A stretch of DNA of 64,000 bases from Diaphorobacter caeni (lineage in GTDB: Bacteria; Pseudomonadota; Gammaproteobacteria; Burkholderiales; Burkholderiaceae_C): assembly GCF_015354245.1 (NCBI RefSeq), contig NZ_JADKYZ010000003.1, positions 1-64,000 of the forward strand, in the 5' to 3' direction. Of the stretch, positions 35,378 to 56,699 are shown in pieces (within the stretch, counting starts at the first letter, position 1; each line of letters starts with the position of its first letter). The notes under the pieces were generated by a model. It did not search any database. It worked only from the letters and a program-made list of their open reading frames with translations, and was not told the origin of the DNA. Both the position numbers and the translations under genes were made by a program.

Positions 35378-35387
35378 GGGTACAGCG

Positions 35388-36782: not shown

Positions 36783-37147
36783 GCCCGATGCGCGCAACCT
36801 GGCTGCGTCAGCACGGGTTGTTCAGCCGCCGCGCGGTGAAGGCGCTGCTGTGGACGGTGGCGATCGTCGCTGCGGCCCTGGGTGCCAACATCGCCGGGAT
36901 CTATCTCGTCGGCAGCGTTGGCGGCTGGGAGCGGTGGCTGATGGCGGCCGCGGGCTACTTTCTGGTGTGGCGGTTGTGCCTGTACGGCGCGACGGCCTAT
37001 GGCTGGGTCTGGATGCGGCGTCGGCTGCTGGCGCGCGAGGCGCAAAACGGAACAGAGGTTCAGGCACGACGCCGCCTGCTGCGCAGCGAGATCGCCGGCG
37101 TCGTCGCCATCGTGGCGCTGGAAGCCAGCCTGCTGATGCAGGGCTGA
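36779..37147 (+). CDS. Small ICE inner-membrane protein (122 aa)
   Basis: A 122-aa protein with three hydrophobic segments (about residues 20-45, 52-75 and 100-120) separated by an Arg-rich cytoplasmic loop. It is wedged between the PFL_4711 and TraG-N genes and coupled to the former by ATGA, a place where PFGI-1-class elements carry a small membrane protein. No domain is recognised. Likely an accessory component of the transfer apparatus. Confidence 0.75.
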   Translation: MSPMRATWLRQHGLFSRRAVKALLWTVAIVAAALGANIAGIYLVGSVGGWERWLMAAAGYFLVWRLCLYGATAYGWVWMRRRLLAREAQNGTEVQARRRLLRSEIAGVVAIVALEASLLMQG

Positions 37148-37162
37148 GGGGAGATTCGGGCC

Positions 37163-39016: not shown

Positions 39017-40228
39017 ATGGATGAATCCCTGCTGCTCGTCTCGGGGCTGCCCAGGGAGACCGAGGGGGAAGCTTTACTCGTCGAGGCCCTGAGCGCTCAG
39101 GGCGTCAAGCCTCATCTTAGTCGACTGTCCGATCACGAGCTTGCAACGCGCGATGGTGCTAGCTATCCGGTTGTTGTGCTGCTGTTGCCGATTTTTGGCG
39201 ACAACGATCTTACGGACAAAGTACACATTCACCTCGCCCGCCTAGCGTCGTGCGATAGTTATCGTGAATGCGCCATTGTGGTGGTCGCGCATGGCGATCG
39301 TCATGCATCAGACGAATTCGTCACTCCCGAAACGCCATTCAGCATCAAAGTCAGTCGTCTTTTCAGTGGTGTCGGCATCTTTGAGATGCTGGAGATCAAG
39401 CTCGATCGGTTCACCGCTGTCGCCCTGGCTAGCGAGATTTTGAATCTAGCCGATGCGACGAGCTTTAGCGATGTATTCGAATTGAACTGCATTGCCCGCC
39501 TCTTGCCGCGAGCGCCCCAGTGGAATGCGCGCAAGCGTATGCTTGACTTCTACGACTCCTGCGCCGGAATCAGCCTTTTGAAGCCTGCCGAGCGTGCAAT
39601 TCGGAAGCGTATCGCAAGCCATATTCAAGTAATCTCTCCACGCATCCTGAAGATGACTCACGCCGGTCTCGGTGACGACGCGCTAGATGATCTGGGGGAT
39701 ACGCTTCATGCTGAAGTAATCGATCTTGGCAGTAATGCTTTTTCATGGGATGGACTTGTGTCGAAGTTGGACACTTGTCGGTGGCTTGGCTTGGCGGCAA
39801 ACGGCATCAAGCAGATGCCCCTCACGCAGCTGCCGCGAGGACTAGAGTATCTCTATCTGCAAAAAAATGATCTTCATGAATTTGCAGCGATGCCTGTGGA
39901 AGTGGCACGAATTAAGTCGCTCAGCCTTTATCGCAATCGACTGACTACCTTTGATTGGCCCGCAGGGCACTCGGCCCTTTCTCGACTCAACCTTGGTGCG
40001 AATCCGCTCGTATCCCTGCCCGAAACGCTAAGTGAGTGTGCCGCACTGGAGTCTCTTGGCTTGGCCAGAACGCAGATCTCGTGTTTGCCTGAGTGGGTCT
40101 TTTCCATTCAGAATCTGCGCGAACTAGATATCAGCTACATCGAAGACCGGATTCCGCCAACACAGATCGCGCATCTGCGCGCACGACGTGTATCGTTAAT
40201 TACACGGCCCGGTTTGGTAATGCCATGA
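39017..40228 (+). CDS. Leucine-rich-repeat protein of the candidate RiPP operon
   Basis: A 403-aa protein. The C-terminal half (about residues 235-390) is a solenoid of LRRs with repeats such as LEYLYLQKNDLHEF, LKSLSLYRNRLTTF-like, LSRLNLGANPLVSL and LESLGLARTQISCL, ending LRELDISYIEDRIPPTQ. The N-terminal 150 residues look like an alpha/beta Rossmannoid domain (LLLVSGLPRE, PVVVLLLPIF, ECAIVVVAHGD) that I cannot name. It starts 20 bases after the peptide gene and overlaps the oxygenase start codon (ATGA). A role in recognising the precursor or scaffolding the two enzymes is inference; an immunity or target-binding role is an alternative. Confidence 0.7.
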   Translation: MDESLLLVSGLPRETEGEALLVEALSAQGVKPHLSRLSDHELATRDGASYPVVVLLLPIFGDNDLTDKVHIHLARLASCDSYRECAIVVVAHGDRHASDEFVTPETPFSIKVSRLFSGVGIFEMLEIKLDRFTAVALASEILNLADATSFSDVFELNCIARLLPRAPQWNARKRMLDFYDSCAGISLLKPAERAIRKRIASHIQVISPRILKMTHAGLGDDALDDLGDTLHAEVIDLGSNAFSWDGLVSKLDTCRWLGLAANGIKQMPLTQLPRGLEYLYLQKNDLHEFAAMPVEVARIKSLSLYRNRLTTFDWPAGHSALSRLNLGANPLVSLPETLSECAALESLGLARTQISCLPEWVFSIQNLRELDISYIEDRIPPTQIAHLRARRVSLITRPGLVMP

Positions 40229-41130
40229 GTGAAGAAACCAATTCCCTCCTTCAGTTCCTGCTGGGCGATATGCCAACGCCACGCTTTTTTAGCGAGGCCT
40301 ATGGTAAGCGCCCGCTGCATATCACTGGTTCGCCAGACAAGTTTGCGCATCTCTTTGCGCTGAGCGATCTCAATGCCATCCTCAACTTTTCGTCGCTACT
40401 GTACCCCCGCGTCCGAGTCACCGATCATCGCAACACGCTCCACAAATATGATCTGATCGACGACAAGGATCGGTACAGCAATAACCTCAACAACGAACTG
40501 AATCGGAAGAAGATTCTGCTGGCCATCGCCCGTGGCGGCACCCTCGTATACGATCGCATCCAGGAGTGTCACCCGCCGCTTGAGTCATTTGTCGACCAGC
40601 TCAGTGAAGAGACTCAAACCCGCGTAAGCGTCAACGGTTACTACACTGCTCGGCGTACGCAGGGGGTTAACGTTCATTTCGACCGGCACGATGTTTTTGC
40701 CATCCAGATCCATGGCAGCAAGCGTTGGTTTTATCGCGAGGACTCGCATGTGCTGTCTCGCTCGATGCGCCACCAGTCTGTACCGCCGGTGGATGAAAAT
40801 TTCACTGGCTGGCAGTCCGTGCTCTTGAAGCAGGGCGACGTGTTCTATTGCCCGCGGGGGATCTGGCACTTTACGCAGACAGAGGAAAATCATTCCGCCC
40901 ATCTGGCGCTCGGTTGGTATCCGTTGACGCTCGGGGATTGGATCAAGAAATTAGAGTCGTATCCGGAGATTGGGGAGCTGCTGGAGGAGTATGTGCAGCA
41001 ACCATGCATGAAAGGCACTTCAATGCAAAACACCACCGCGCTCGACAACCTGATTAATGCGTTGCGTAACGAGGCCAGTCGCCCCTTTCCCCCGCTCACG
41101 CGGCCACGACCATATCTCGAGCTGGAATGA
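40225..41130 (+). CDS. JmjC/cupin-type 2-oxoglutarate Fe(II) oxygenase, peptide-modifying candidate
   Basis: A 301-aa protein of the ribosomal-oxygenase-like JmjC family (compare YcfD/RoxA). The iron-binding HxD is HFD at 151-153 in VNVHFDRHDVFAIQIHGSKRW, and the distal histidine is H215 in CPRGIWHFTQ, completing the HxD...H triad. YcfD-type enzymes hydroxylate arginine or histidine side chains of ribosomal proteins; here the obvious substrate is the adjacent 57-aa peptide, which carries single His and Cys residues and several Asp. The start at 40225 overlaps the LRR stop; an upstream in-frame extension lies inside the LRR gene and is rejected. Confidence 0.8.
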   Translation: MSEETNSLLQFLLGDMPTPRFFSEAYGKRPLHITGSPDKFAHLFALSDLNAILNFSSLLYPRVRVTDHRNTLHKYDLIDDKDRYSNNLNNELNRKKILLAIARGGTLVYDRIQECHPPLESFVDQLSEETQTRVSVNGYYTARRTQGVNVHFDRHDVFAIQIHGSKRWFYREDSHVLSRSMRHQSVPPVDENFTGWQSVLLKQGDVFYCPRGIWHFTQTEENHSAHLALGWYPLTLGDWIKKLESYPEIGELLEEYVQQPCMKGTSMQNTTALDNLINALRNEASRPFPPLTRPRPYLELE

Positions 41131-42161
41131 TGGAGCAGTTCTATTTCGTTATCACGGAACGCTGCAACCTAACGTGTTCGCATTGCATTCGCGACTCATC
41201 TCCTTACCGCGACGAAACTGCGGAAACTGGCATGATCAAAAATGCGTTAACGCAGATTGCGCGCAGCCATCCAGAAAGCCTGGTGTTGCTGAGCGGCGGA
41301 GAGCCGACGCTGCATCGTCGTTTCCGGGAGCTACTTGATTTCGGGCTGCAACTCGGACTGTCCATTACCATCAATACGAATGGAGTGACCTCGTTCTTCA
41401 ACGAGCGGACGCTGAAGGAGCTGCCACGACATGCACGTCTATCCGTGCAAGTATCGTTGGATGGCGACGAGGCGATGCATGACGCAATTCGCGGCCCTGA
41501 CTCCTACCGTAAGGCCGTGCGAACTCTACGAAGACTCGTAGAACATGGCATTCGCTGCAGCGTCTCAACCACGGTCGTGGATGTCGACTTCATGGCACGT
41601 GCTGATGCTTTCATCGCCTCGTTGGACGTGCTCGGATTGGCCCATATTGCCATCAAACGGGCGACTTATGCGGGCAGGGCTGCGAGCGGTGTACACATAG
41701 ATGGGAGAAAGTGGAACGAACATGTCTACCGTTTGCGAGCGCTACCGACGAAGACGCGCCTGAAAATGATGCCAATGTACGACTTTGATCGACTCGATGA
41801 GCTTTCAGATGATGTACTGGCCGCGCTTGAATTGCCCCCGTCGGCAACAAATTGCGGGGCAGGTACGGCGAAGGTCTATATCTATACCAACGGAGACGTG
41901 TGCTCGTGTACCTGCTTCAAGGATCGGCCGATGGGAAATCTGTATCGATCAGACCTCGACGTAATTCTCACTAAGCCGTCGAGCATTCAGGTCAAGCATC
42001 CCGCTTGCAACACTTGTCGCTATTTCAGGCTGTGCCGCGGTGGCTGCTTAGGCAGCGGCTATCAAACTACGGGGATAATCGGAATGCCCGACCCGCGCTG
42101 CCCCAAGGTCGCCAGCCCAGACGGGCGTCGCGAAAAAATCATAAATTTACAGCACCTTTAA
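41127..42161 (+). CDS. SPASM-domain radical SAM peptide-modifying enzyme
   Basis: A 344-aa radical SAM protein. The [4Fe-4S] motif CNLTCSHC (Cys13, 17, 20) is followed by the GGEP motif in LLSGGEPTLH and by TNGVTS. The C-terminal SPASM region has clustered cysteines: NCGAGTAKVYIYTNGDVCSCTCF, CNTCRYFRLCRGGC and DPRCP, sufficient for auxiliary iron-sulfur clusters. SPASM radical SAM proteins beside a small peptide gene usually install sactionine or ether/cyclophane cross-links. It overlaps the oxygenase gene by four bases. The natural substrate is predicted to be the peptide at 38823. Confidence 0.87.
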   Translation: MMEQFYFVITERCNLTCSHCIRDSSPYRDETAETGMIKNALTQIARSHPESLVLLSGGEPTLHRRFRELLDFGLQLGLSITINTNGVTSFFNERTLKELPRHARLSVQVSLDGDEAMHDAIRGPDSYRKAVRTLRRLVEHGIRCSVSTTVVDVDFMARADAFIASLDVLGLAHIAIKRATYAGRAASGVHIDGRKWNEHVYRLRALPTKTRLKMMPMYDFDRLDELSDDVLAALELPPSATNCGAGTAKVYIYTNGDVCSCTCFKDRPMGNLYRSDLDVILTKPSSIQVKHPACNTCRYFRLCRGGCLGSGYQTTGIIGMPDPRCPKVASPDGRREKIINLQHL

Positions 42162-42260: not shown

Positions 42261-42845
42261 TTAGCGCACAACCCTTTCTGGCCACCCATTTATAAACACC
42301 GACCCATCTGTTTTCAGGCGAATCTCAAGCACTCGCTCGACTTTGTCGTTGGATTCAATTCGCACATCATAACGCTCCGTCAAATAATGAAATTGTTGAT
42401 TGGTAGAGCCAACCCAGCGGCGATTCCGATCTGGTAAATCCGCCTCATACGGGCCATCCACTAGCACATCCGTATAGCGAAGAAGTTGATCAACGCCAGG
42501 TAGTCGCATCGCATCAAGCTCATTTTTTGTATACCCACTGAATACCATCACCGATAGCCCCAGTGACTGGACTCCTTGAGCAACGACAGCCAAACCTTGT
42601 GCTTGCAACATGGGCTCGCCACCGAGAAAGGTCACCCCTTCAAGATCGTGCGCATGATGCGCATTCCTCAGCCAGTCGAGAACCGATGAAGCCGAAACAA
42701 GCTCACGCTCAGCCAGCTGCAGATACGCCGGGTTGCAGCAGCCATGACAACGTTTGTTGCAACCTTGCACCCACAATGCAGCTCTTCGCCCCGGCCCTTC
42801 GGCTTCGGTGCAAGGTAGGCGAGATGCCATGTTTAACCAATGCAC
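42261..42845 (-). CDS. Short activase-type radical SAM protein of the five-gene operon
   Basis: A 194-aa radical SAM protein of the activating-enzyme size class (NrdG/PFL-AE-like). The cluster motif is CNKRCHGC (Cys29, 33, 36), preceded by EAEGPGRRAALWVQG and followed by VTFLGGEPMLQ. The GTG start at 42845 lies four bases after the Clp-like stop codon and follows GGAG; an ATG at 42830 is the alternative. Activases normally create a glycyl radical in a partner enzyme, but no glycyl radical protein, nrdD or pflB is in the window. The last gene of the operon; its activity may be directed at another protein of the set. It converges with the SPASM gene, leaving 99 bases between them. Confidence 0.78.
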   Translation of the reverse strand: MHWLNMASRLPCTEAEGPGRRAALWVQGCNKRCHGCCNPAYLQLAERELVSASSVLDWLRNAHHAHDLEGVTFLGGEPMLQAQGLAVVAQGVQSLGLSVMVFSGYTKNELDAMRLPGVDQLLRYTDVLVDGPYEADLPDRNRRWVGSTNQQFHYLTERYDVRIESNDKVERVLEIRLKTDGSVFINGWPERVVR

Positions 42846-42849
42846 AATT

Positions 42850-44712
42850 TCACTCCAGCTCAAATAGCAATTTGCCACCTGCAATATGAATTTCAATTGC
42901 TTTCCCCCGAATCTGATCAGGGGTGGCCATTTGTGCAAACAGAAAATCGGCCAGTGGATCAATTAGCTTATTGGTAAGCGCATTGGGGACGCCGCGACCA
43001 CCCGCTCCCCGATCCACTTCTCTGATCAGTAAAGCTAGTATCTCGGCCTCCTTGACCAGTCTCAGTTCAGAAACACCCCATTTATCCTTCAGCCCTTTGC
43101 GTAGCGGCTCCAACTTGGCACGGGCAATGTCAATCAAAAAGCCATCGTCACGCATGAAGTTGAATGGAATAATGTTGGCCTCACCAATTCGCCCTAACAA
43201 TTCTGGGCGCTTCAGCTCGTGTACGAAGTGATGCCGAACCTTTTGGATGAATTCATTGCGCACATCCTGACTTTCATAACTGACCTCGGCTGCGCCAATG
43301 TTCGAGGTGAAGACGATGACAGTATCCGAAAACATCACCGTTTCGCCCTTGCCATCCGTCAAGCGCCCGTCTTCTAGAATTTGCAAAAACTTGTCGAGAA
43401 TGCGGGGATGTGCCTTCTCAATTTCATCAAACAATAACAGAGAAAACGGTCTTTTTTTGACCGAATTGGTCAACTGCCCACCAGCCTCGTAACCCACGTA
43501 ACCTGGCGGTGCACCCACCAATCGCTGGTCAGCATGCTCGTGATTGAACTCTGACATGTCGAAGCGAAGGCAGGCCTCTTCGTCGCCGAAGAGAAACTCG
43601 GCAATTGATTTCGCCAATTCAGTTTTACCGACGCCCGTTGGGCCGACAAAAAACAACACCCCCTTTGGAGTGCGTTGCCTGTATGAGTGTTGAAGCCCCG
43701 ATAGTCCCGTGAAGGCGCGCACGAGAATGCGGCGCACCGACTCAATGGCTTCCCCTTGACCTTTGACGCGCCGCCCCAGCGTTTCGACAATGGTCTGAAG
43801 TTTTTTGTGATCCAGTTGCTCCCAAGGACTGTGCCTGCGGCCATGGCGATACAAATTGAGTAGAGACAGCGCACTTGAGACTTCGGTCTCTTGTCGTGAA
43901 AGTCGTGCGAGATTGTGAATGTCGCGAATACTCTGTCCCTCCAGTCCATCAACGAAGTCAGCCAACTCACGCCCGCCTTGCTGCAAAAGGGGCTGTAGTC
44001 GAAACACTTCTTTCAATCCCAGTACAGCAGACTCGCGAATTTGCCTGGTCGGCAAGGGAATTGCTATTTCCCCAAATAGTGGATTGTTCAAGTAGAGCGA
44101 TGGTGGCAACACATTCAAGCCCCCACACAACAGCACCAGCAGTGATTGAGGCTGCCCAATGTTTTCAACATTTCTAACCACAGCAGCATCACGGGTAGCC
44201 TGCCCTAGGCGCAGCAACCATCCGCGCTCATTCTCACTCAACGAGTTGGCGCTACCAAACAAGTATTGCGTCCAATCCAGCACAAAAGCGACTGGCTTTT
44301 CGGCACGAGGTTGTCGTAGCCATTGCGCAGCAACAGCCAGAAAGTCATCCGCGCTTGCCGAAATGCCGCTGGATGCGGGGCTCGGCACAGATGTAGGAGG
44401 CAATTCGCCCATGTCATAGGCGCTCCCCTCGGACGTGCTGCCTCTCACTGCATGTGGCGTAACGGAGCTTTGCAATTCTCCCCAAGTCCTCGCATCAATG
44501 CCACTGACACCATTGATGCGGTTCCAGAAAACCACATGCTGGTACCCGCGCTGACCCAGTAGGCTCTTCAACGCGGTCGGCAAAGCAATCCATTGCCCTG
44601 GCGCTTCGGGATCAGATGTCAAATCACCCGTGTTGCCATGCAATATCACACCGCGCCGTATGCCGCATTCGCGACGAAAGTCTTCCTGCCACGGCAACAA
44701 AACTGAACTCAT
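42850..44712 (-). CDS. Clp-like AAA+ ATPase with an inactive N-terminal AAA-like domain
   Basis: A 620-aa protein. The C-terminal half (about 310-600) is a ClpB/ClpA D2-type AAA+ domain: Walker A GPTGVGKTE (357-365), Walker B LLLFDEIEKAHP, sensor 1 FTSNIG and arginine finger region ELLGRIGE. The N-terminal half lacks a P-loop (RRGVILHGNTGDL is its only resemblance) but retains VAFVLDWTQYL, so it looks like a degenerate AAA module, instead of the Clp N-domain and D1. No ClpP-binding loop is evident. It overlaps the upstream coiled-coil gene by four bases. Expected role: ATP-driven remodelling of partner proteins. Confidence 0.82.
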   Translation of the reverse strand: MSSVLLPWQEDFRRECGIRRGVILHGNTGDLTSDPEAPGQWIALPTALKSLLGQRGYQHVVFWNRINGVSGIDARTWGELQSSVTPHAVRGSTSEGSAYDMGELPPTSVPSPASSGISASADDFLAVAAQWLRQPRAEKPVAFVLDWTQYLFGSANSLSENERGWLLRLGQATRDAAVVRNVENIGQPQSLLVLLCGGLNVLPPSLYLNNPLFGEIAIPLPTRQIRESAVLGLKEVFRLQPLLQQGGRELADFVDGLEGQSIRDIHNLARLSRQETEVSSALSLLNLYRHGRRHSPWEQLDHKKLQTIVETLGRRVKGQGEAIESVRRILVRAFTGLSGLQHSYRQRTPKGVLFFVGPTGVGKTELAKSIAEFLFGDEEACLRFDMSEFNHEHADQRLVGAPPGYVGYEAGGQLTNSVKKRPFSLLLFDEIEKAHPRILDKFLQILEDGRLTDGKGETVMFSDTVIVFTSNIGAAEVSYESQDVRNEFIQKVRHHFVHELKRPELLGRIGEANIIPFNFMRDDGFLIDIARAKLEPLRKGLKDKWGVSELRLVKEAEILALLIREVDRGAGGRGVPNALTNKLIDPLADFLFAQMATPDQIRGKAIEIHIAGGKLLFELE

Positions 44713-45854
44713 TTACTTCTCTCCTGTGTCGCATCAGGGTAAGGGCGAGCATCCTGATCCAGATCATCGGGGTTGACCCATATCACGCGCTTGTCGCTCA
44801 GGCTAATCCCGTAAGCATCTTGTAGCGTTGCCATGACAGGGGCGACATCTTTCTCGCACGTTTTGCCTTTGTACTGATGAAACTTGTAGCTGAGATGGCC
44901 GCTCAGGTTGACGCGGAAATCCGCCTGCGCGCCAGCAGGACGACGGGCGCGAATCAGTACTTCATCTTGCCCTTGTGATGTGAGATGTTCGGGGCCATCC
45001 ACGACAAAGCCAGCTTGTTGCAGAGACTGATACACCGCCCGCACAACTTCACGACGCTGGCTTTCGCCCACGGCTGCTTCATCCTGTTCTTGCGCCAGTT
45101 GGTTCAAAGCTTCGGCCTGTTCTTCAGGAGCCAGTCCTGTCGCATGAGCCAACGCCTCGCGCAGCTTTGCGGCACGTTCGCCACCGCCCATATTCGCTTC
45201 ATGTTCCAACTGCTGTCTTTGCAGCGTTAGCACATCGGTCACGGCATCTCGCTGCGCACGCTTTTTCATTTCCAATAACTGGCATTCAGCGTCCTCTTCA
45301 TACCGTTGCTGAACTTCGCGCAAAGCGGATGAAATTTGCGCCGGGGTCATGTTATTGCCAGCATTGCCAAGTAGTCGCCCGCGTAGTTGCTGCAACTCAC
45401 CGAACGCAGCATTGAGTGCGACTGGTGTGCTCCAACCGCTCAAGCCTTCGCGCCAGGCCGCCTCAAGTTCTGCCTTCAGCTGCAACTGTCGTTCGGCCTC
45501 AACTTGCTGCGCTTTGCGGAATGCCTCGACTGCGGCCAGCTCCGCTTCATGACGGGAACGGCGCTGCTCGCGCGCAAGCCGTGGGAACCCATGAAATCGA
45601 CCACCCAGGGAACGACTCATATCTCTGGCGGCAAACGGGTCGGAATCCAGCAAAGCCTCCATGCGCCTGAGTTCAGAGCTCAGCTCACGAAACTCTGCTG
45701 GAATAACGTCGCTCAGCCCTTGACTAACGACATCATTCAAGATGCTCCGATAGCGCTCCACAAAAGGGCGTGTTGTTTCTCGCACACGCTGCCGATCAAG
45801 CTCTTGTTTACGCTGTCGTTCAATTCGATAGCGGTACTCATCAGCTCGGCTCAT
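44709..45854 (-). CDS. Coiled-coil protein of the five-gene operon
   Basis: A 381-aa soluble protein, very rich in Gln, Glu, Arg and Ala. Long heptad-like stretches cover residues 1-60 and 90-270 (QRRSRHEAELAAVEAFRKAQQVEAERQLQLKAELEAA region). The C-terminal 100 residues form a globular domain (VVRAVYQSLQQAGFVVDG...VNLSGHLSYKFHQYKGKTCEKD). No named domain is recognised. The start follows AAGGAG, five bases after the PIN gene stop, and the end overlaps the Clp-like start codon (ATGA). It may act as adaptor or filament scaffold for the AAA+ ATPase. Confidence 0.65.
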   Translation of the reverse strand: MSRADEYRYRIERQRKQELDRQRVRETTRPFVERYRSILNDVVSQGLSDVIPAEFRELSSELRRMEALLDSDPFAARDMSRSLGGRFHGFPRLAREQRRSRHEAELAAVEAFRKAQQVEAERQLQLKAELEAAWREGLSGWSTPVALNAAFGELQQLRGRLLGNAGNNMTPAQISSALREVQQRYEEDAECQLLEMKKRAQRDAVTDVLTLQRQQLEHEANMGGGERAAKLREALAHATGLAPEEQAEALNQLAQEQDEAAVGESQRREVVRAVYQSLQQAGFVVDGPEHLTSQGQDEVLIRARRPAGAQADFRVNLSGHLSYKFHQYKGKTCEKDVAPVMATLQDAYGISLSDKRVIWVNPDDLDQDARPYPDATQERSK

Positions 45855-45858
45855 ACTT

Positions 45859-48258
45859 TTATCTCCTTTTATTCTTTTGTTTGTTTTTCATCTGAACGTG
45901 CGCTTCCGAAGCAGCAGCTGGAGCAATGCGCGAAGACGCATATGACCTGGAATCTTGCGTATTCAAACCAAGAGACTTCGCTTTGTTGCGTAGGTTGATG
46001 TCATTACTCACAAACAAAACTTCATTCAGCCGGAAGAACAACGCAGTTGAAAGAATGGCATGATCGGGTTGCTTGGCATCCCACTCTGCGGGCAGCAAGG
46101 CCGTATATTCTTTTTCATGGCGGATGCGATATGAGGTCGCATCCAACTGGCGAATGGCTGCGCGCGCCTTGACCGCACGAGCATCATCTTCACTAGTCTT
46201 CAAGCCATCCAGCTCGCTCAGAACGCGATGAGGGACAAGCGGAATATCTTCGGAAGGAAGATCCTGTAAAAGCTCAGGACTTTCCATCAGAGCGCTGGTG
46301 TCGAACACCACAACGCGGTGCCCAATCTCAACCGGGGCCAGCTTGTCCTGAGCCAGAAAATTCCAGCTTTCCACTGCTTTATTCAACGCATCCCAGAGGG
46401 GCGATGATGTGTTTAAAGCGTGAAAATGCTCAGTCGCTTTACGCCAAGCGCGCACGGCATTCAATGCACCTGGGGTCAGGGTGCGTACATCCATTTGGCC
46501 ATTACCAGCCGCTTTCAACGCCTGGTCGCCAATACTCCGGTAAATATCCTGGACGGCTCTCTCAATAACTTGCATTGGTTGCTGTACGGCGTGTGGGCCA
46601 TACAGCTTCAAATCTTTGCGCTGCAATGCGTGCTCCAGCCACACTTGCCGCAACTCGCTGGAAAGCAATTCTTCTGGAATTTCAGTGGATGAAGGCAAAG
46701 CTGATCGCAGCTTCGCCAATGAGTCCAAGGCAAGAATGGGGGCCGCATGAGGCAGCAACGCAGCTTGCAACGACGCTGCCTTGTCGGCAGACAAGACCTG
46801 AGCTATCTGGATTAATAGAGATACGACATCATCAGGATCAAGCTGATTGGGCGTATGTCGCAACGACTCATCCATAGCTTTCGACAGAACCTCTTCCCAA
46901 GCAGATTTCCAGTCTTTCCTATCTGGCCGCCACAATCCAATTGCTTGTGTAGCGGGCTCGATCAACGCCACCAGATCATCCAGAGGCCGTTCGGCACGCG
47001 CGGCAAGCCACGGCCACACCGTTTCTCCGATTGCATCGACATCCCGCCATGCGACGGGCATGAGGGCAATACGTGGATCATCGGAGTGCTCGCAAGCCCC
47101 CTCCAAATCTCTGCGCAGCTTGGCCCAAAGCACGGTTGCAGCATGGTCACTCAATGTCACCGCTAGGCCACACAGGCGCGGCTGTCCAGCCCAATAGAGG
47201 CGGAGGTTCCCGGCTACTTCTACTTGAGCGTTCGCTACGCCGCTCTGTGGCAGAGACAAGCTACGAAATCCCGTCATAATTTCTGCTGGGGTGGGCACGA
47301 GCAGTGTGAGCACGGTCGGCTGTTTGCCACTGGCAACCAGTTCTGGTGCGTTCACTTCAGACGATAAAACGATGGTGGGTGTTGCCGCATCCGCCGCAAC
47401 GCCTTGCGTAACGATGCACAACCGCGCTCTGACTGCACCCCTATTAGTTGCTGTAATGGGACGGGCAGTACGGGCATCGCGTAAAACAGAAGAGCCAATG
47501 ACGGGCAGAGAAGCATTCGGTTCGCTTGTCAGTGCGCCAGCAAGCAGAATTTCCCATGCCAGTTCGGATTGTGCTTGCTCCAGCCAGCGCTGCAATGCGG
47601 CATCACGCGGAGCACTCGCGGACAGCACACCATCCTCGCTGCACGAGATTTCGAGCCTGCGCTCTCCCCATCCAGATAGCTGAACCACGGGCGCAATGCG
47701 GTCTACAACTGTCGCAGGGTTTTTCCAGTCATAAGTTTCCTGCGCTATGGCGCGTTCGACTTGCGGCAACGGATTTTGCGGCCTCAAAGCGTTGTCGACG
47801 AAGCTCATGCGGCTCATGTTGCCTTGGCTCTGCAGCCCACCATCCCTCTTGGCCGGTTTGATCTCATCACCGATAGGATCGTAGTGATGACTGACTTTGA
47901 TCGTGCGCGAGCGCACCGGCAGGCTGTCGCTGCGCAAGAATTGCAAGCCATCGGCAGTCAATTCAAGCTCAGTTAGACGCACCTCGAGCATATCAAGGGC
48001 GTAACGCTTGGGCAGAGCACCCAAAGCGGAAAGTTCAGATACGCAGCCCTCCAGCAGTTCACGCACATCGCCTGCGCCCAATTGATCCCGGAAAACACCA
48101 AGTAAGGACAGGCTCTGTTTATCAGGTAAATGGAGCCCAGGATCACACAGTCGCAATACCATCCGTTCAAACACCGTGGGTTTGCGCTCGGTGTGATAGG
48201 TCACCTCGGATTCAATGCGATACAAGGGCAAGGGAACGGAAATTTCTGCCAGCTTCAT
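45859..48258 (-). CDS. Large protein with a C-terminal PIN nuclease domain
   Basis: A 799-aa protein. The last 150 residues are a PIN domain with the four acidic positions in place: D653 (VVVFDTSALM), E682 (VLSELDGLK), D732 (PDHAILSTA) and D753 (SNDINLRNKA), so a metal-dependent RNase or DNase activity is likely. The first about 640 residues are unrecognised; the extreme N-terminus may hold a winged helix. The C-terminus is Lys-rich. It overlaps the helicase gene by four bases (ATGA). This is the presumptive effector of the operon. Confidence 0.75.
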   Translation of the reverse strand: MKLAEISVPLPLYRIESEVTYHTERKPTVFERMVLRLCDPGLHLPDKQSLSLLGVFRDQLGAGDVRELLEGCVSELSALGALPKRYALDMLEVRLTELELTADGLQFLRSDSLPVRSRTIKVSHHYDPIGDEIKPAKRDGGLQSQGNMSRMSFVDNALRPQNPLPQVERAIAQETYDWKNPATVVDRIAPVVQLSGWGERRLEISCSEDGVLSASAPRDAALQRWLEQAQSELAWEILLAGALTSEPNASLPVIGSSVLRDARTARPITATNRGAVRARLCIVTQGVAADAATPTIVLSSEVNAPELVASGKQPTVLTLLVPTPAEIMTGFRSLSLPQSGVANAQVEVAGNLRLYWAGQPRLCGLAVTLSDHAATVLWAKLRRDLEGACEHSDDPRIALMPVAWRDVDAIGETVWPWLAARAERPLDDLVALIEPATQAIGLWRPDRKDWKSAWEEVLSKAMDESLRHTPNQLDPDDVVSLLIQIAQVLSADKAASLQAALLPHAAPILALDSLAKLRSALPSSTEIPEELLSSELRQVWLEHALQRKDLKLYGPHAVQQPMQVIERAVQDIYRSIGDQALKAAGNGQMDVRTLTPGALNAVRAWRKATEHFHALNTSSPLWDALNKAVESWNFLAQDKLAPVEIGHRVVVFDTSALMESPELLQDLPSEDIPLVPHRVLSELDGLKTSEDDARAVKARAAIRQLDATSYRIRHEKEYTALLPAEWDAKQPDHAILSTALFFRLNEVLFVSNDINLRNKAKSLGLNTQDSRSYASSRIAPAAASEAHVQMKNKQKNKRR

Positions 48259-51200
48259 GCGCGCGCCCCCCGATTACCGCCCTTGTCGCCCAGGGGCGTA
48301 GCCGCTCGGTTGGGTGGGGCATTGAACCTGCCACGTTGCTGTTGTGGCTGCTGGGGCAGCATATCCGGTGACATCAACTGCCTTGCCGGAACTAGCCGTG
48401 CATCGCGCTCCAGTTGATCCAGAATGTCCTTGTAAACGGCTCGCTTCACGCTGCCTGCGCTGTCCATACGCGGCAAATCCACCTCGTAGGACGCATACAT
48501 GCTTTTCGCGCCGAAGACGACCAGCAGCGCCTGCGCGCGCGAAAAAGCCACATTGATAAATTCAAATCGAGCGACATTGGCCTTGCTGGAGCGACGCCGA
48601 GGCTGATTGCCCGAGCGCAAAGGATCGTACCCATCGTGGCGCACCATGCTGACCAGCACGATTGACTTTTCCTTTCCCTGATAGCGAATCACGGTATTGA
48701 CCTCAACATCGAGGCATTCGAATCGACCGTTGGAACCCTGTGGACGGCGGCGACGGATGGCGGCACGAATTTCTCGGCATTGGTTGGCATAGAAAGACAC
48801 CACGCCGACTTTGCGTTTGTTTGTACGTGAGTAGCCTTGCGCAGCGGATTGCTGTTCGATTTTCTCTAGCGTTTCGGCAATCAACTCCGCTTCCAGCTTA
48901 TTGGTGCGCCGTGGCTGGTTGCCGTCCATGTCTTCACGGTGAATCTGGTTGTGCAGGTTGTAGGTTGTGTCCACCCACAACGCATGGTCATCCGGGGTGA
49001 GTAAAGGTGAGCCGCCGTCCACATTCCTCAATGTCAGTCCGTGAACACGGCGAAGCTTCTGGTCTGGATCATCGTCAGGTCGAAGGAGGCCGCATTCCAA
49101 CTGCCCTTCGTAAAAGTGGTTCACCATCGCCATGATTTGCGGGTGCATGCGGAACTGCACATTGAGGCGTGCGCGGATGGCATCGTCCGCCATCTCGAAA
49201 TGCGACTTGAACAACGAGGCTGTAACCATCTTCTCAAAGCGGCGCAGGTTGTCGCGGGTCAGCAAGGTTTGCGCGTCGGCAAGCTTGCCAACGCTGTTTT
49301 CCTCTGCGTTGGCCGCTTCGCTTTCTTCTACTTCATCCATGAAGCTACGAGCTTCGTCGCCCTCCTGAAACAGCGGCGGCAACTGGCGGTGGTCGCCGAC
49401 CAACACAGCGCGGCGCGCACGCATCAAGGGCATCAGCAATTCAAGCGGCGTGGCCTTGCTCACCTCATCAATGATGGCAACATCAAAACTCGCCTGCCCA
49501 GCATCGTCCAACGTGCGTTCGTTTTCATTGCAGCTAATGGCCACCACATTGCAGCTCGCCAGAAAATCCGCGCCCAGATGCTGCCAGTCCTCTGCTGAAG
49601 CGTTGTTGCGGCTCAAATCACTTTTCCAATCATCCAGCAACGGCCCCCATGTCTGGCGTTGGTATTGCTGGCTGGCCTGACGTTGCTCCAAGACTTTGAT
49701 GATTTGGGCGACGGTTTCGATGCGCTGCGACAAAGTCGCAGCAGGCTCCAGCGGCAAGCGATTGCCTTGCGTGATCGCCTCATCTTGCAACAAGGCCTGA
49801 ACCTTCTGCTCATGCTGCCTGTGCTGCTCGACCCAGCCATCGATCTTGCTTTGGGCGTTGCGCTCTTGGTTTCGCGCGGCTCGCACAAGGCCATCGTTCG
49901 GGGCTTCAGGTGTGGGCTGAGACAATTGAGCCTGCGTGGATTGCTTCACGATTTCGATGGCCTGATCGATGACCGTCCGCGTCCTCTCCAATGCTGTTAG
50001 GCTGACATCCATTTCGTCTGCCAGTTGAGTCGCGTTCTTAATCGGAGCGCACCATTCGGACGCTTGGCGAAACAGGCCGTCATAACGGCTGCGCTCCAAG
50101 CCCACGCCAGCCTGCTCCAAATCTTTGAGCTCCTTGCGCGCGGCTCTCCAAGCATTTACGTAAGCGTCGTCCTTCTCCATCTGCTCCTCCAAGGCTTTGA
50201 CCTCACTTCGGAGCGATTCAATACGTAACCGGGTGCTGGCATCCTGAATCGGGCCGCCCGCTGCTTCGCGCAGGCGACGAATGTCCGCATCAATAGCTTC
50301 TCGCTCATTCGTGAAACGCCGCCACGCAGCCAGCATATGCGCCAGCATTGCGCCCCGACTGCCTGGATGGGCCAGCCAATCGTCCATCGAAAATTTCACG
50401 AGCAATCCTGCAGCCTCGCAGGAAGCAAGGCCTTGCGCCAGATTTCTGGCAGGCTCATCCACATACCGCAAGTCGCCATGCAACGTTTCGGCTTTGCCAT
50501 GCAGCAAGGCCTGAATGCTGTGCAGGCGCTGACGTTTGGCCTTGTCCTCATCCAGCATCGCACAGGCAGCGTCATACGCCTGCTGCGTCTGCGTTGTCTG
50601 GCTGCGGGCCGATGCAAAGTCCGTTTCAAGCTGCCCACGTCTGGCGCTCAACTCCTTCTCGTCGTGCAACACAAAAGCCGCGCGCTCATGCCACTCCAGC
50701 AAGAGACGCAAGTCTTCGTCACCGCGCTTCCACACTGCAAGACGGTCTTCGGTTTGCCCGGCCAAGGCCTTGTAGTAACGCTGCAAGGCTGCCTGCCCCG
50801 CGAAGGCCGCTCCATCCTCTGTCACCTTGCGTTCATTCCGCGCCAACCGCACTACGCGCAAAGAACCGTCATGCCCCAACCTGTCCAGCGCATTGTCCAC
50901 TGCGGTATGCGCCTGGGATGCTAGCAGCACCCGCTGCCCGCGCCGCGCCAATTGGACGATGGCTTCCGCGATCACAGTGGTCTTGCCCGTGCCCGGCGGC
51001 CCTTGAACCAAGCACAAATCCGGTGCAGACAGAATCTTGACCACGGCTTCTTTCTGGGCCGGATTGAGCTTGTCATTGGCCCACTGGGTCACCGGCTCCA
51101 GACGTTGCGGTACGGAAACCTGTGCAGCCTCGAACAGATAATCAGTTAAATACGGCGCATAGCCACCCTGTTCTTGCAACTGTCGCAACGCCTGTTGATG

Positions 51201-52214
51201 GCGCTTGATCAGACTCATGTCGCCTGCCGTTGAAATGGACAGAAAACCGGACTCCGGGATTTGACTCAAGATGCGCTGGCGCAGGGCATCCGGCTCCTCG
51301 GCATTGGCGAGGTCATTCGCGTCGTCTTCGGTCAGTGAGACGGTCAGCTCGGCAAATACGGGCGCAGGCCAAGGACACTCCGGCAAGTTGCCGTCCTTGG
51401 GTAATTGCCTGTCTTTCGGCAACGATGCAGGCTCTGAGAGTTTGCCAGCCTGCCCTAGCCGAGGAAGGCGGCGCTCCTCCCTTTCAGGCAATCCGAACAC
51501 CCACGGTTCTTTGGATTGACCAACCTGAAACGCCACCAGATCATCCCGCCCCAAAGCCTTGCGGTCTTTTTGCAAAGCCTGTGCGCTCTGCGCGACCAAG
51601 GAAAAAACCAACTGCTCGTCACGCCATTCACGGCTGATGTAGCGCAAGCCGCGCGCCTTGTGGCGGATGAGGCTTTCTTTCCATCGAAGAAACTCAGTCC
51701 ACTCGGTCAACTGCTTTTCGGTTTGCTGCGTGATTGGCGGCAAGTCGGCCAACAGTTGCGGCGTGAGCAGGTTATTGACGCGCTGAATGCGCCGCTGACC
51801 GGGCGCGGATTGCAAGCTGTCATGCACGGCAAATGCAGTGACTTCGCGCTCGAAAGATCGCACAGGTAGGTCGGCAGTCTCGATGAAACCATTGATGAGA
51901 AAGAGCGGTGAAGAAGATTCGGTGGGCCAGCTTCCCGTGGCGATGAAGGCGCATCCGTCTGGGAAAGGCCAATCCCGCCCAGCGGCGTTTACCCGAATCG
52001 CCATCTGTGCGTATCGTGGATTCTGCTTGTCCCGCTGCCGATTGGAAACATAGCCCGTGATTGGCATATTGTTTGGGAAGAGCAGCTCATATAAAACTTC
52101 CATCCCTTCACGGCCGTTGCACCAGTTTTTGAATGTCTGATGGCGGCGCTGAATATCAGCGATAGCTCGATTAAGTCCTCTGTTGCCTAGGTCAAGCGCA
52201 ATATACAAATTCAT
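48255..52214 (-). CDS. Large SF1 helicase (Upf1/IGHMBP2-type AAA_11/AAA_12)
   Basis: A 1319-aa superfamily 1 helicase. Walker A is GPPGTGKTT at about residue 405, followed by LLASQAHTAVDNALDRL (motif Ia), VAIIDEVSKATPLELL (motif II), VLVGDHRQLPP (motif III) and VNTVIRYQGKEKSIVLVSMV plus FINVAFSRAQALLVVFG (motifs V/VI). A 400-residue helical insert with coiled coil separates the Walker A and II regions, and about 380 residues of unknown fold precede the core. The ATG at 52214 is preferred to a TTG at 52217. First gene of the five-gene set, 18 bases after the DUF3742 gene on the same strand. Confidence 0.85.
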   Translation of the reverse strand: MNLYIALDLGNRGLNRAIADIQRRHQTFKNWCNGREGMEVLYELLFPNNMPITGYVSNRQRDKQNPRYAQMAIRVNAAGRDWPFPDGCAFIATGSWPTESSSPLFLINGFIETADLPVRSFEREVTAFAVHDSLQSAPGQRRIQRVNNLLTPQLLADLPPITQQTEKQLTEWTEFLRWKESLIRHKARGLRYISREWRDEQLVFSLVAQSAQALQKDRKALGRDDLVAFQVGQSKEPWVFGLPEREERRLPRLGQAGKLSEPASLPKDRQLPKDGNLPECPWPAPVFAELTVSLTEDDANDLANAEEPDALRQRILSQIPESGFLSISTAGDMSLIKRHQQALRQLQEQGGYAPYLTDYLFEAAQVSVPQRLEPVTQWANDKLNPAQKEAVVKILSAPDLCLVQGPPGTGKTTVIAEAIVQLARRGQRVLLASQAHTAVDNALDRLGHDGSLRVVRLARNERKVTEDGAAFAGQAALQRYYKALAGQTEDRLAVWKRGDEDLRLLLEWHERAAFVLHDEKELSARRGQLETDFASARSQTTQTQQAYDAACAMLDEDKAKRQRLHSIQALLHGKAETLHGDLRYVDEPARNLAQGLASCEAAGLLVKFSMDDWLAHPGSRGAMLAHMLAAWRRFTNEREAIDADIRRLREAAGGPIQDASTRLRIESLRSEVKALEEQMEKDDAYVNAWRAARKELKDLEQAGVGLERSRYDGLFRQASEWCAPIKNATQLADEMDVSLTALERTRTVIDQAIEIVKQSTQAQLSQPTPEAPNDGLVRAARNQERNAQSKIDGWVEQHRQHEQKVQALLQDEAITQGNRLPLEPAATLSQRIETVAQIIKVLEQRQASQQYQRQTWGPLLDDWKSDLSRNNASAEDWQHLGADFLASCNVVAISCNENERTLDDAGQASFDVAIIDEVSKATPLELLMPLMRARRAVLVGDHRQLPPLFQEGDEARSFMDEVEESEAANAEENSVGKLADAQTLLTRDNLRRFEKMVTASLFKSHFEMADDAIRARLNVQFRMHPQIMAMVNHFYEGQLECGLLRPDDDPDQKLRRVHGLTLRNVDGGSPLLTPDDHALWVDTTYNLHNQIHREDMDGNQPRRTNKLEAELIAETLEKIEQQSAAQGYSRTNKRKVGVVSFYANQCREIRAAIRRRRPQGSNGRFECLDVEVNTVIRYQGKEKSIVLVSMVRHDGYDPLRSGNQPRRRSSKANVARFEFINVAFSRAQALLVVFGAKSMYASYEVDLPRMDSAGSVKRAVYKDILDQLERDARLVPARQLMSPDMLPQQPQQQRGRFNAPPNRAATPLGDKGGNRGARA

Positions 52215-52232
52215 CAAAAAAACATAGCCTTG

Positions 52233-52630: not shown

Positions 52631-53089
52631 CTATTCCAGTTTGCTCCAATCCTGCTTGCTTGCCTGTACCAAGGCGTTCCAGTCGTCTGGCGGGTTTCCG
52701 CGTCCAAGCATCTTCTCGAACACGGCATACGGGTCGGACTTGCTGCCCGAAGACCGTAGGGTCTGCTCGTCGTTAACCCAGGCGTACACGATGACCTTCG
52801 CCTTCGAGTCGTACCGGAAGAACAGCCGGTAACGCCTTCCGAGCTTGGCCCGCCGCCAGTGGCGATAGGCCGACCCCATGGTGTTGCCTTGACGGTACTC
52901 GTCGCGTGCCGGATCACTCGGCACCACGTCTTGTATCAACTGGACCAAGGCTCGGAAGAACTTGACGTTGGCGTTGGACACGAACCCTTGCGGGTCGTTC
53001 TCTTGGGCACGCAGCACAGCTGCGCGCAGCTTCATCATCTGCTCGATCAGGTTGTCGTGGAACAGCAGTGTCCAGCCATGCTGTTGCAT
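52631..53089 (-). CDS. yhaV: YhaV-type type II toxin (RelE-like ribonuclease)
   Basis: A 152-aa toxin of the YhaV family, an mRNA interferase. Recognisable features are the opening GWTLLFHDNLIEQ, the RRAKLGRRYRLFFRYDSKAKVIVYAWVNDE core and the C-terminal AYAVFEKMLGRGNPPDDW-like block (PYAVFEKMLGRGNPPDDW). Length agrees with the family. Its start codon overlaps the prlF stop by one base, the usual translationally coupled arrangement. It promotes stable inheritance of the element or growth arrest on antitoxin loss. Confidence 0.9.
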   Translation of the reverse strand: MQQHGWTLLFHDNLIEQMMKLRAAVLRAQENDPQGFVSNANVKFFRALVQLIQDVVPSDPARDEYRQGNTMGSAYRHWRRAKLGRRYRLFFRYDSKAKVIVYAWVNDEQTLRSSGSKSDPYAVFEKMLGRGNPPDDWNALVQASKQDWSKLE

Positions 53090-53406
53090 CAGATTTCCAC
53101 GTCCTCAGCGAAATCATCGCCCAGGTCCACCTTGTGGCCCGCGTGCTCCAGCATCGTGCGAGCCAGATCCTCGGGCAGACCGCGAACATTCCGGCCTGCT
53201 TCAATGTCGCGCGCCAGCAGGGCCAGGAACGCGGCAATGGCCGGGTCCTCGTGCTCCGCATCGGCACGGGTCACGACCACTTCACCGCCGCGAAGCTCGA
53301 ACGCGAGCTTGCTGCCGGTATCGGCACCAAGCGCCTGGCGGATGGACTTGGGCAGCGTGATCTGCCCCTTGGATGTCAGCGTGGCAACTTCGTGAATGGC
53401 AGGCAT
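53089..53406 (-). CDS. prlF: PrlF-type antitoxin (AbrB/SpoVT swapped-hairpin)
   Basis: A 105-aa antitoxin: the AbrB-type DNA-binding N-terminus (residues 5-45) has TLTSKGQITLPKSIRQALG; the C-terminal tail, rich in acidic residues, neutralises the toxin. The ATG at 53406 follows AGGAG; an in-frame extension to 53496 would run through the palindrome at 53437-53454 and is rejected. PrlF represses its own operon together with YhaV, which agrees with the palindrome upstream. Confidence 0.92.
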   Translation of the reverse strand: MPAIHEVATLTSKGQITLPKSIRQALGADTGSKLAFELRGGEVVVTRADAEHEDPAIAAFLALLARDIEAGRNVRGLPEDLARTMLEHAGHKVDLGDDFAEDVEI

Positions 53407-53436
53407 GGCGGCTCTCCTGATAGCAATGCCTGCATT

Positions 53437-53454
53437 GTAAGGATTATTCCTTAC
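53437..53454 (-). promoter_or_regulatory. Palindromic operator candidate of prlF-yhaV
   Basis: GTAAGGATTATTCCTTAC is a perfect 7+7 inverted repeat with a four-base centre, lying 31 bases upstream of the prlF start. Reading the minus strand, its end overlaps a TACAAT -10-like hexamer (53432-53437 region), so a protein bound here would cover the promoter. Autoregulation by the PrlF-YhaV complex through a palindromic operator is expected for this family. Confidence 0.68.
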
Positions 53455-53665
53455 CAAATCAATGCAAGGTTTCATGATGTTCTCCGCATTCAACATTGAA
53501 CCTCATCGTAGGGAGGGAACAGTGAGCCTTCCCGCATCAATCCGGCCTTGGTGAACCCCGCATTGATGCTGGACGGTCAATGCTCGCTGCCCTATACCCA
53601 AGGGATGTAACGGCCAAAGAGCCAAAAGGGCAAGGGAACGGGGGACAAGGGGAAAGGCTCTACCT

Positions 53666-55604: not shown

Positions 55605-56699
55605 CTACTGCTGTGCAGCACTGCTGTCCGTAGCCCCTTGAGAAGATGTAGCGCCTTCTGCCTTCTTGGCGGTGGCGTCGCGTTGAGCGGCTTCCAGATC
55701 AGCGATGCGCGCCCCAAGGACGTGTACTTGTTCTCGAAGTATTTCGTTCTCATGTTCCGCTACAGAACGCTGCTGATTACCTTGCTCGACGGCGGTCAGT
55801 AGCTTCACTTGCCACTGATCCTCGGAGGAACTGCTGTCCCGGTCTTGGACGTAAGCGAAACCAGAGACGATCAAGGCAAACAAGGCCAAAACCGCCGAGA
55901 TGCCAACCGACCACACCGCGATGGTGATCTGCGTGCGCGTGGACTGATCGGTTCTTCGGTCGCGCTCGTCCATCTGCTCCATCAGGGTCGTCGCTGCTTC
56001 CGCCAAGTCCTTGAGCGTCTTGGCCGACTCTGCAGTCATCTGTCCGGTGAGGCGCGTCAACTCCATTTCTTCGGCGCGCTCTTTCACGCGCTCGTGCGCT
56101 TGCTGCACCATCTGCCTGTTCAAAGCATCGAAGTGATCCGTGCGAATCGGCTGGATTTCCAATGGCGCTGGCTTTGAAAATTTTGTCAATTCCTCGTAGG
56201 CACTCAAGGTTGATCCCAAGACCGACGTGCTCTTACGGACTTGATCAAAAAGGCCACGATTGGAACCGAGCAACGACTCGTGCATTCGCTTCGCACTCTG
56301 GCGATAGTCATCGACTTCCGCCTTGAGTAGTCGCACCAGATAGGCCGACGCCGTTTCACGCGTTTCTCGCACGGCAGGTTTCCGCTCTTGCGAGTTTTCG
56401 CGAGTAGTCAGCAATGCTGACGACTGCGCATAGGCATCAGCAATCCGCTCGATCTCGTCGTTCGAGAGACCTGCAACAATCGCGGCATCAAGAGGGACGC
56501 GCTCCGGGGCCTCGTCGGATTCAACGGCCAAGCTGCCAATGCTCGGCAAGAAAGCCCTGATCTGGCTGACCACATCGCCAGGTTCGAGCTTCCCGAAATC
56601 GGTAATGTCGCGCACACGCAGCGGATACAAATAGATTCTTCCTGCTGATGTTTCGATATCGGTGACTGGCTTTGATCGAAGTAAATCTTTTATCTCCAT
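55605..56699 (-). CDS. Membrane-anchored coiled-coil protein at the distal end of the BREX operon
   Basis: A 364-aa protein: globular N-terminal domain (about 1-100), helical region with two coiled-coil stretches (about 105-255), one membrane helix (about 265-290) in ITIAVWSVGISAVLALFALIVSGFAYV, and a second coiled coil plus a low-complexity tail. I recognise no domain. ATG at 56699 or GTG at 56702 may start it; both overlap the BrxA-like stop codon, so it is cotranscribed with the BREX genes. It could be an accessory, perhaps an abortive-infection-type membrane effector; this is inference. Confidence 0.62.
   Translation of the reverse strand: MEIKDLLRSKPVTDIETSAGRIYLYPLRVRDITDFGKLEPGDVVSQIRAFLPSIGSLAVESDEAPERVPLDAAIVAGLSNDEIERIADAYAQSSALLTTRENSQERKPAVRETRETASAYLVRLLKAEVDDYRQSAKRMHESLLGSNRGLFDQVRKSTSVLGSTLSAYEELTKFSKPAPLEIQPIRTDHFDALNRQMVQQAHERVKERAEEMELTRLTGQMTAESAKTLKDLAEAATTLMEQMDERDRRTDQSTRTQITIAVWSVGISAVLALFALIVSGFAYVQDRDSSSSEDQWQVKLLTAVEQGNQQRSVAEHENEILREQVHVLGARIADLEAAQRDATAKKAEGATSSQGATDSSAAQQ

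Follow-up and report, generated by a model that had tools for sequence, protein, structure and literature searches.

A mobile five-gene operon joining a predicted UPF1-type helicase and a PIN nuclease to a Clp-type ATPase, a coiled-coil protein and a radical SAM protein

The window analyzed here – 64,000 nucleotides at the start of a 682 kb contig (NZ_JADKYZ010000003.1) in the 5.99 Mb genome of Diaphorobacter caeni – carries an operon of five genes, g1 to g5, encoding a superfamily 1 (SF1) helicase, a PIN-domain protein, a helical coiled-coil protein, a Clp-type AAA+ ATPase, and a small radical S-adenosylmethionine (SAM) protein (Table 1). The same five genes recur together in a variety of bacteria and on plasmids, and the system that they form is real, mobile and widespread, has a new control triad (g3, g4 and g5), and is apparently undescribed.

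The five genes and their predicted products

The five open reading frames (ORFs) share one strand and are joined either by ATGA overlaps (g1/g2 and g3/g4) or by 4-base gaps (g2/g3 and g4/g5), which bears out the tight coupling claimed in an earlier sequence-only reading of this DNA. The start of g5 is most likely the GTG at 42845 rather than that of a longer ORF beginning with TTG. Pfam assigns AAA_11 and AAA_12 to g1, PIN_4 to g2 (E 1.2e-20), AAA_2 to g4, and Fer4_12 and Radical_SAM to g5, and matches no family in g3. Genes for DUF3742, YhaV and PrlF lie upstream of g1, with TraI_2 farther out (Pfam); DUF3742 adjoins g1 and thus flanks the operon, as that reading had also proposed.

Table 1. 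Coordinates of the operon, its domains and the satellite genes in the window
Feature	Position	Strand	Remarks
g1, SF1 helicase	48255-52214	minus	ATG start; alternative TTG one codon upstream at 52217
g2, PIN protein	45859-48258	minus	N-terminal region of ~645 residues and C-terminal PIN nuclease
PIN domain within g2	45949-46311	minus	Pfam and structure comparison
g3, helical/coiled-coil protein	44709-45854	minus	C-terminal alpha-beta domain
DUF2997-like C-terminal domain of g3	44757-45002	minus	YxGxxC, C333
g4, Clp-type AAA+ protein	42850-44712	minus	Walker A/B, pore-loop Tyr, Arg finger and sensor 2 intact
Pseudo-AAA N-domain of g4	43849-44712	minus	lacks Walker A by sequence
g5, NrdG-like radical SAM protein	42261-42845	minus	194 aa; GTG start
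Satellite radical SAM/SPASM protein	41127-42161	plus	convergent to the operon; relatives adjoin the operon in 8 of 58 loci (many with short flanks), window included
Satellite cupin/JmjC-like protein	40225-41130	plus	label by eye, HxD...H; in 5 loci
Satellite leucine-rich repeat (LRR) protein	39017-40228	plus	found again only in L031 (2 loci)

The g1 protein retains the motifs GPPGTGKT, DEVSK, GDHRQLPP, RMHP, QGKE and SRA, with a long insert separating motifs I and II, and the solved sequences nearest to it are those of SMUBP-2, DNA2 and UPF1/Nam7; judged by its sequence, it is a UPF1/SMUBP2-type SF1 helicase. The acids of the g2 PIN domain are intact, as had been claimed, with D653 and E682 present in 28 of 28 aligned homologues and D732 and D753 in 26 of the 28. 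In the AlphaFold model of g2 (mean predicted local distance difference test score 86.3), the PIN domain is most similar to that of human SMG6 (VIA-align Z 15.8, root-mean-square deviation 3.0, 129 aligned residues, 26% identity) and next to yeast Nmd4, both alone and Upf1-bound (Z 14.4), and g2 carries a PIN active site of the SMG6 type. The ~645 N-terminal residues, which the fold search barely tested, have no Pfam match over the cut-off. Nmd4 binds Upf1 through its arm and, in the excerpts of PMC11463774, its PIN domain is described as probably inactive, whereas the acids of g2 are all in place.

A co-inherited unit and its variants

We compared 92 loci: the window, four plasmid loci, 79 loci from genome contigs, and eight further regions, with Leisingera L116 excluded. 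The 79 were recovered by scanning genome contigs with the g4 alignment, using the best 80 of 93 confirmed matches. The full five-gene order is present by profile hidden Markov models (HMMs) in 43 of the 92 loci (37 of the 79); the HMMs alone give 42 (36), L042 being added as the forty-third after an over-extended ORF was resolved. Chance does not account for so frequent a recurrence, and looking for the same order in other genomes, the check that the sequence-only reading had suggested, finds it. The 79 genome-contig loci divide into 55 close relatives, 20 members of a deeper branch, and four (L101-L104) with the Clp-type core alone. Among the close relatives are the 37 with the full order, nine truncated at the ends of contigs, L058 holding just g4-g5, five partner variants, and three from Mycoplasmataceae. 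Pairwise protein distances among the five genes correlate with r between 0.805 and 0.951 (819 pairs, 41 loci). The five genes are one co-inherited unit on a mobile element.

Among its hosts are beta-, gamma- and alphaproteobacteria, Paenibacillus, Brachyspira and Synergistales, and plasmids carry it as well. Searches with tblastn match ten plasmid records with g3, the same ten with g1 at E <= 1e-60, and nine with g2, all nine being among those shared by g1 and g3. The order helicase, PIN, hypothetical, AAA, 4Fe-4S is seen in all five plasmid regions inspected (Moellerella, Polaromonas, Photobacterium, Acinetobacter and Leisingera), with identity to the window proteins in the first four reaching as low as 23% for g2, 37% for g3, and 38% for g1. 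Distribution is nevertheless sparse: aside from the window's own genome, g3 was not found in 397 phylum-wide and 368 class-wide genomes, and a single one (G130, locus L105) of the 149 other genomes from the order carries the unit. In L027, a Pseudomonas metagenome-assembled genome (MAG), DUF3742 and part of TraI_2 adjoin g1 as in the window, and the cassette therefore occupies the same slot there; L029, in a Lentisphaerae MAG, shows 94% g4 identity and may be a binning error. Viral origin was rejected, since 68 pattern matches to g4 in IMG/VR viral contigs gave no confirmed relative and phage records contain no g3 relative. Megablast, the only search made, found no near match to the operon in complete Escherichia coli genomes.

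Elsewhere among the lineages, relatives of the control unit are connected to different partners. In L054, L055 and L057, g3-g4-g5 precede other genes and a helicase of the g1 family; for L054 and L055 the domain search covered the last gene only, and the partners in L057 are two vWA proteins, a PP2C, a kinase-like protein that falls short of the Pfam cut-off, and an MkoA-like helicase (309 bits). The TerY-P triad consists of vWA, PP2C and kinase components, and TerY-P-like genes thus accompany g3-g4-g5 and the MkoA-like helicase in L057 but are absent from the window operon. A Ppx/GppA-domain protein replaces the PIN protein in L072, and in the Mycoplasmataceae loci L076 and L078 the upstream neighbor of the g3-like gene is weakly HEPN/DUF4145-like (best E 0.0002 and 0.006, below cut-offs). 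The deeper branch comprises the 20 genome-contig loci and seven further regions, with a g5-family match within the locus in 17 of the 20 and six of the seven, lying upstream of g4 in L082. Partners searched there include a fusion of kinase, DUF4011, helicase and restriction endonuclease (REase) domains, kinases, PP2C and FHA; the fusion, a 2106 aa kinase-DUF4011-SF1 helicase-MTES REase protein in L094 (5546-11863), matches PADLOC PDC-S37 (442 bits) and adjoins the g4 and g5 relatives. Eighteen deeper-branch proteins encoded upstream of g4 were considered, and the C-termini of twelve that were alike by eye were aligned; these match g3 with a score of 32.0 against a maximum of 20.7 in 100 shuffles.

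The sequence-only reading had held that independent occurrence of the genes would speak against a five-part system, and here the evidence is divided: the five-gene order recurs, but g4 and g5 are found in different company too, several of these loci including a g3-like protein. The functional core thus looks like a triad and not a closed set of five, and the common denominator across lineages is probably an adaptor, a pseudo-AAA/Clp motor, and a radical SAM protein.

The control triad, DUF2997 arrays and neighboring genes

In a g4 alignment of 113 rows, the Walker A Lys is conserved in 95 of 95 non-gap rows, the pore-loop Tyr in 91 of 91, and the Arg finger in 92 of 92, and no Walker A is found by sequence in the first ~290 residues; g4 has an intact Clp-type motor behind a pseudo-AAA domain. 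It shares an intact C-terminal AAA+ motor, pore-loop Tyr and Arg finger with Clp/Hsp100 proteins of the ClpB type, although these have two active AAA modules. Of 82 rows, 81 retain the g5 cysteines of CxxxCxxC and the GGEP motif, the remaining row being a gap, and the earlier description of an AAA+ protein with a dead N-terminal module and a radical SAM protein with its cluster motif therefore holds. The best NCBIfam match of g5 is NrdG (89.7 bits, below the cut-off of 126.1); the PADLOC viperin match is 25 bits over 77 residues, and identity as a viperin (pVip) was rejected in favor of an NrdG-like protein. The g3 protein has an invariant Cys, C333, within YxGxxC (57 of 57 non-gap rows among 64). 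A fold search with the whole g3 model gives no match at E <= 0.001, and the VIA list for its C-terminal domain contains the spermine synthase N-domain, KA1/AMPK-type folds and RnlA (best Z 9.3), matches that may reflect a common arrangement with no function indicated.

Like NrdG and the activase of pyruvate formate-lyase (PFL), g5 is a radical SAM protein of small size that bears CxxxCxxC and GGEP, but its operon has no glycyl radical enzyme. Among 23 host genomes – the window's and 22 others with full-order loci, the L053 genome not included – PF01228 is present in five and NRDD in eight, together nine; the other 14, the window's included and many of them draft assemblies, match neither family. 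A radical SAM activase without a glycyl radical enzyme, which the sequence-only reading had singled out as odd, is thus what is seen in these hosts, and glycyl radical enzyme activation was rejected as a general role of g5. Two g5-like proteins of G317 (Mycoplasmataceae) adjoin NRDD genes and look like ordinary NrdG.

A candidate partner emerges from arrays of a different kind. The 21 plasmid records matched by g5 include eight regions inspected beyond Moellerella and three others (L122 and L123 are without annotation), and at five plasmid loci – in Paenibacillus, Paenarthrobacter (two), Rhodococcus and Arthrobacter – a g5-like radical SAM protein is in an array with an AAA ATPase and DUF2997. 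A further component of these arrays is a DUF1257 protein in L115, replaced by an unnamed protein in the others; Pfam was run on L113 and L115 only, and the small Arthrobacter proteins are annotated as hypothetical. Relatives of the Paenibacillus AAA protein adjoin DUF1257 and DUF2997 on five further plasmids inspected (683 matching records), and AAA/DUF1257/DUF2997 arrays lie beside ordinary genes on three cyanobacterial plasmids. Outside such arrays, g5 relatives occur in Calothrix, where a plasmid stretch (L114 3424-14123) encodes Hsp70, a tetratricopeptide repeat protein, a g5-like radical SAM protein and an AAA ATPase, and in Treponema, where a g5-like radical SAM gene on a plasmid adjoins an AAA ATPase gene (L117 8899-11054) and the surrounding genes are annotated as contractile injection system and phage baseplate proteins.

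Profile-profile comparison of the g3 C-terminus with ten DUF2997 sequences gives a score of 29.6 (P 2.2e-5; maximum 15.8 in 100 column shuffles), and comparison of the g4 N-domain with those of nine DUF2997-linked AAA proteins gives 58.8 (P 5.4e-8; maximum 18.1 in 60 shuffles). In an earlier comparison of five-sequence profiles, none of 200 shuffles reached the observed scores; for the g4 N-domain, P is 0.056 with five sequences on each side and 2e-4 with a wide g4 set. The invariant g3 Cys aligns with the Cys of GxxC in DUF2997, and the C-terminus of g3 is, on these alignments, a DUF2997-like domain whose Cys is invariant. A DUF1257-like (Ycf35) region was sought in g3 and not found (P 0.73 and 0.37). 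DUF2997-ycf35-fed7 is listed as a cyanobacterial gene cluster, with no DUF2997 function given in the excerpts of PMC4284462. Together, the g4 N-domain, the DUF2997-like end of g3 and the g5 relatives in the arrays give the 'orphan activase' a candidate partner. The likeness of operon and arrays is thus in the AAA N-domain, DUF2997 and, at the five plasmid loci, the g5-like protein, whereas the arrays have a classical AAA core (PF00004) in place of the Clp type, have separate small proteins, and lack a helicase-PIN arm.

Three satellite genes, which the sequence-only reading had passed over, separate the operon from ORFs at 35322-38671. SPASM relatives are beside the operon in the window, L024 (twice), L029, L031, L043, L044, L046 and L047, on the downstream side of g5 everywhere but in L024 and L043, and L029 also has a partial cupin match near the operon; the cupin-like protein has no NCBIfam or PADLOC match. 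No satellite gene is present in 31 control loci of the deeper branch and other Clp loci (471,018 bases). The LRR, cupin-like and SPASM genes are not random neighbors, and may form an accessory maturation cassette. On the other side of the operon, bacteriophage exclusion (BREX) genes BrxA, PglZ and BrxHI lie at 56699-62240, 4.5 kb from g1 and on the same strand, and are followed beyond the window (G000:C23:62000-80000, L129) by PglX, PD-T7-3-like, HEC-01A-like and BrxC genes. A Schlafen/AlbA_2 protein with a Fic-like C-terminal domain is encoded at 62237-63949 inside the BREX stretch, the YhaV/PrlF toxin-antitoxin pair is at 52631-53496, between the operon and TraI_2, and a 1108 aa protein at 20255-23581 has Hachiman HamB helicases (~118 bits) as its best PADLOC matches.

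Known systems and proposed function

None of the PADLOC 2.0.0 and NCBIfam protein models names the five-gene set, in agreement with the claim that no named defense system has these parts. In PADLOC, g2 and g3 have no match, and those of g4 reflect the shared AAA core only (PDC-M37B, 100 bits; DolB, 69 bits). The strongest g1 match is to the Mokosh helicase MkoA (340.4 bits, E 7e-102; 285 bits for a second MkoA model). The partner of MkoA in Mokosh type I is the serine/threonine kinase MkoB, and Mokosh identity was rejected since none of the five window proteins has a kinase domain at E <= 0.1 in Pfam; in place of an MkoB-type kinase, the operon has PIN, coiled-coil, Clp motor and radical SAM components.

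The nearest published precedents are of two kinds. Among conflict-system effectors, an SF1 helicase module typically accompanies a PIN domain, and a radical SAM domain occurs in FtsH ternary systems (Kaur et al. 2020, PMC7159879). The NTP-dependent conflict systems set out there likewise have an NTPase core with swappable effectors, but the cores in the excerpts of that paper are vWA-MoxR and similar, with no Clp-type pseudo-AAA, DUF2997-like adaptor, or NrdG-like radical SAM protein alongside helicase-PIN (PMC7159879); Pfam finds no vWA or MoxR domain in the five window proteins. The other precedent is nonsense-mediated decay, and a link between it and the PIN nucleases of bacterial conflict systems was proposed earlier (PMC5031192, citing Anantharaman and Aravind 2003). 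The operon resembles UPF1 with SMG6 or Nmd4 in encoding a UPF1-family helicase beside a PIN protein of SMG6 type whose acids are intact; nothing in that pathway corresponds to the control triad, and the resemblance does not imply a shared pathway or a common origin of the pairing. The helicase-PIN effector pair thus has a published precedent (PMC7159879), and the excerpts of open-licence PMC papers examined contain no counterpart of the control triad; a description of the operon was not found in open-licence PMC papers, subscription papers and bioRxiv being outside this scope.

We propose, at somewhat less than even odds (a probability of about 0.45), that the operon is a conflict system that spreads horizontally, is most likely directed against phages or plasmids, acts on RNA and is gated by the triad. 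The sequence-only reading had called the operon conflict-type: the coherent mobile five-gene unit stands, and a defense role is likely because of its mobility, its rarity, the type of effector and the nearby BREX genes, from which we infer it. In such a system g1 would load on foreign or ribosome-bound RNA and g2 would cut it, as do UPF1 and SMG6, with g3-g4-g5 serving as the control unit of the helicase-nuclease. The g4 motor, with g3 as a putative adaptor, would thread or remodel a protein, which could be g3 itself, the helicase-nuclease, or one that belongs to the invader, and g5 would modify the triad by radical chemistry or charge a radical, most likely on the DUF2997-like domain of g3, an action that would license or reset the triad. 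A bolder form of the proposal, which we regard as unlikely, is a radical-licensed RNA-surveillance immunity, in which a g5 radical or radical-derived bond on the YxGxxC domain would let the Clp-type unfoldase switch the UPF1/SMG6-like helicase-endonuclease on invader RNA, the same chemistry operating in the AAA/DUF1257/DUF2997/radical-SAM arrays.

Several observations weigh against this proposal. We infer the RNA target and the order of events from homologues, and SMUBP2/DNA2-type helicases act on DNA too. Full order denotes profile matches in the right order and not intact genes: L047, L062, L069 and L105 each have one of g1, g2 and g4 split, and L059 (Helicobacter suis) and L079 (Fervidicella) have several split. 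Pfam DUF2997 (PF11211) is the family matched by the most g3 members, though these are only 4 of 32 (best E 0.014), and the window g3, which has no clear Pfam assignment, is not among them. Direct homology of the deeper-branch g3-like proteins to DUF2997 is not supported, since 11 of 100 shuffles score as high as the twelve aligned C-termini; the Cys common to all twelve falls outside the aligned stretch. Moreover, no g5 is found near any of the three Mycoplasmataceae loci (L076, L078 and L080) while the g3-like protein keeps YxGxxC, so that the Cys has a role not needing a local g5, and a simple model in which g5 acts on the g3 Cys is weakened.

Other roles for the operon have to be weighed against the proposed conflict system. 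It could be an addiction or stabilization cassette of an integrative element, with a PIN toxin restrained by one or more partners (g3, g4) such that loss of the element kills the cell, and with phage protection absent or incidental. Toxins with PIN domains are common, the operon is rare as well as mobile, and the YhaV/PrlF pair adjoins it, but related control units occur with non-PIN partners and, to our knowledge, some 10 kb with five large proteins, including a UPF1-like helicase and a Clp motor, is unlike known addiction pairs; we consider this role improbable. Alternatively, the operon could be stress or RNA quality-control cargo comparable to Ter-type systems, the helicase-PIN arm clearing damaged or stalled RNA and the triad sensing redox or metal stress, as might be expected from the TerY-P-like set beside g3-g4-g5 in L057 and from the cyanobacterial plasmid arrays that neighbor ordinary genes. 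We doubt this, given the patchy distribution (g3 not found in the 397 and 368 genomes, the unit in one of 149 of the order), carriage on conjugative plasmids, and the proximity of BREX.

Two further alternatives concern g5 itself. Its Fe-S/SAM site might report oxygen or SAM level, such as SAM loss caused by phage enzymes, to g4 and g3, making g5 a sensor and not a modifier. Such a small NrdG-like enzyme is coupled to an AAA+ motor, its substrate is a candidate only, and the Mycoplasma relatives persist without a nearby g5; the cysteines and GGEP are nonetheless kept, as catalysis would lead one to expect, although they could also be needed by a sensor, and on balance a sensor seems rather improbable to us. 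Activation of a host glycyl radical enzyme, in the manner of NrdG or PFL activase, has in its favor that NrdG is the best, if sub-threshold, NCBIfam match and that nine of the 23 hosts have such a family, but the absence of both families from the remaining hosts, drafts though many are, makes it highly improbable.

If the proposed conflict system is indeed a defense system, it would have a new architecture, in which an RNA-cutting arm like that of eukaryotic mRNA surveillance is placed under an unfoldase, an adaptor and a radical enzyme, and it would be relevant to the proposed origin of nonsense-mediated decay in a bacterial conflict system. The presence of related control units beside kinases, phosphatases, vWA genes and the REase fusion suggests a reusable immune control module. 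An 'orphan activase' radical SAM protein is linked to the uncharacterized DUF2997 family, both being directly testable, and, were the radical-licensed form true, it would provide the first function for DUF2997, the family found with Ycf35 in cyanobacteria.

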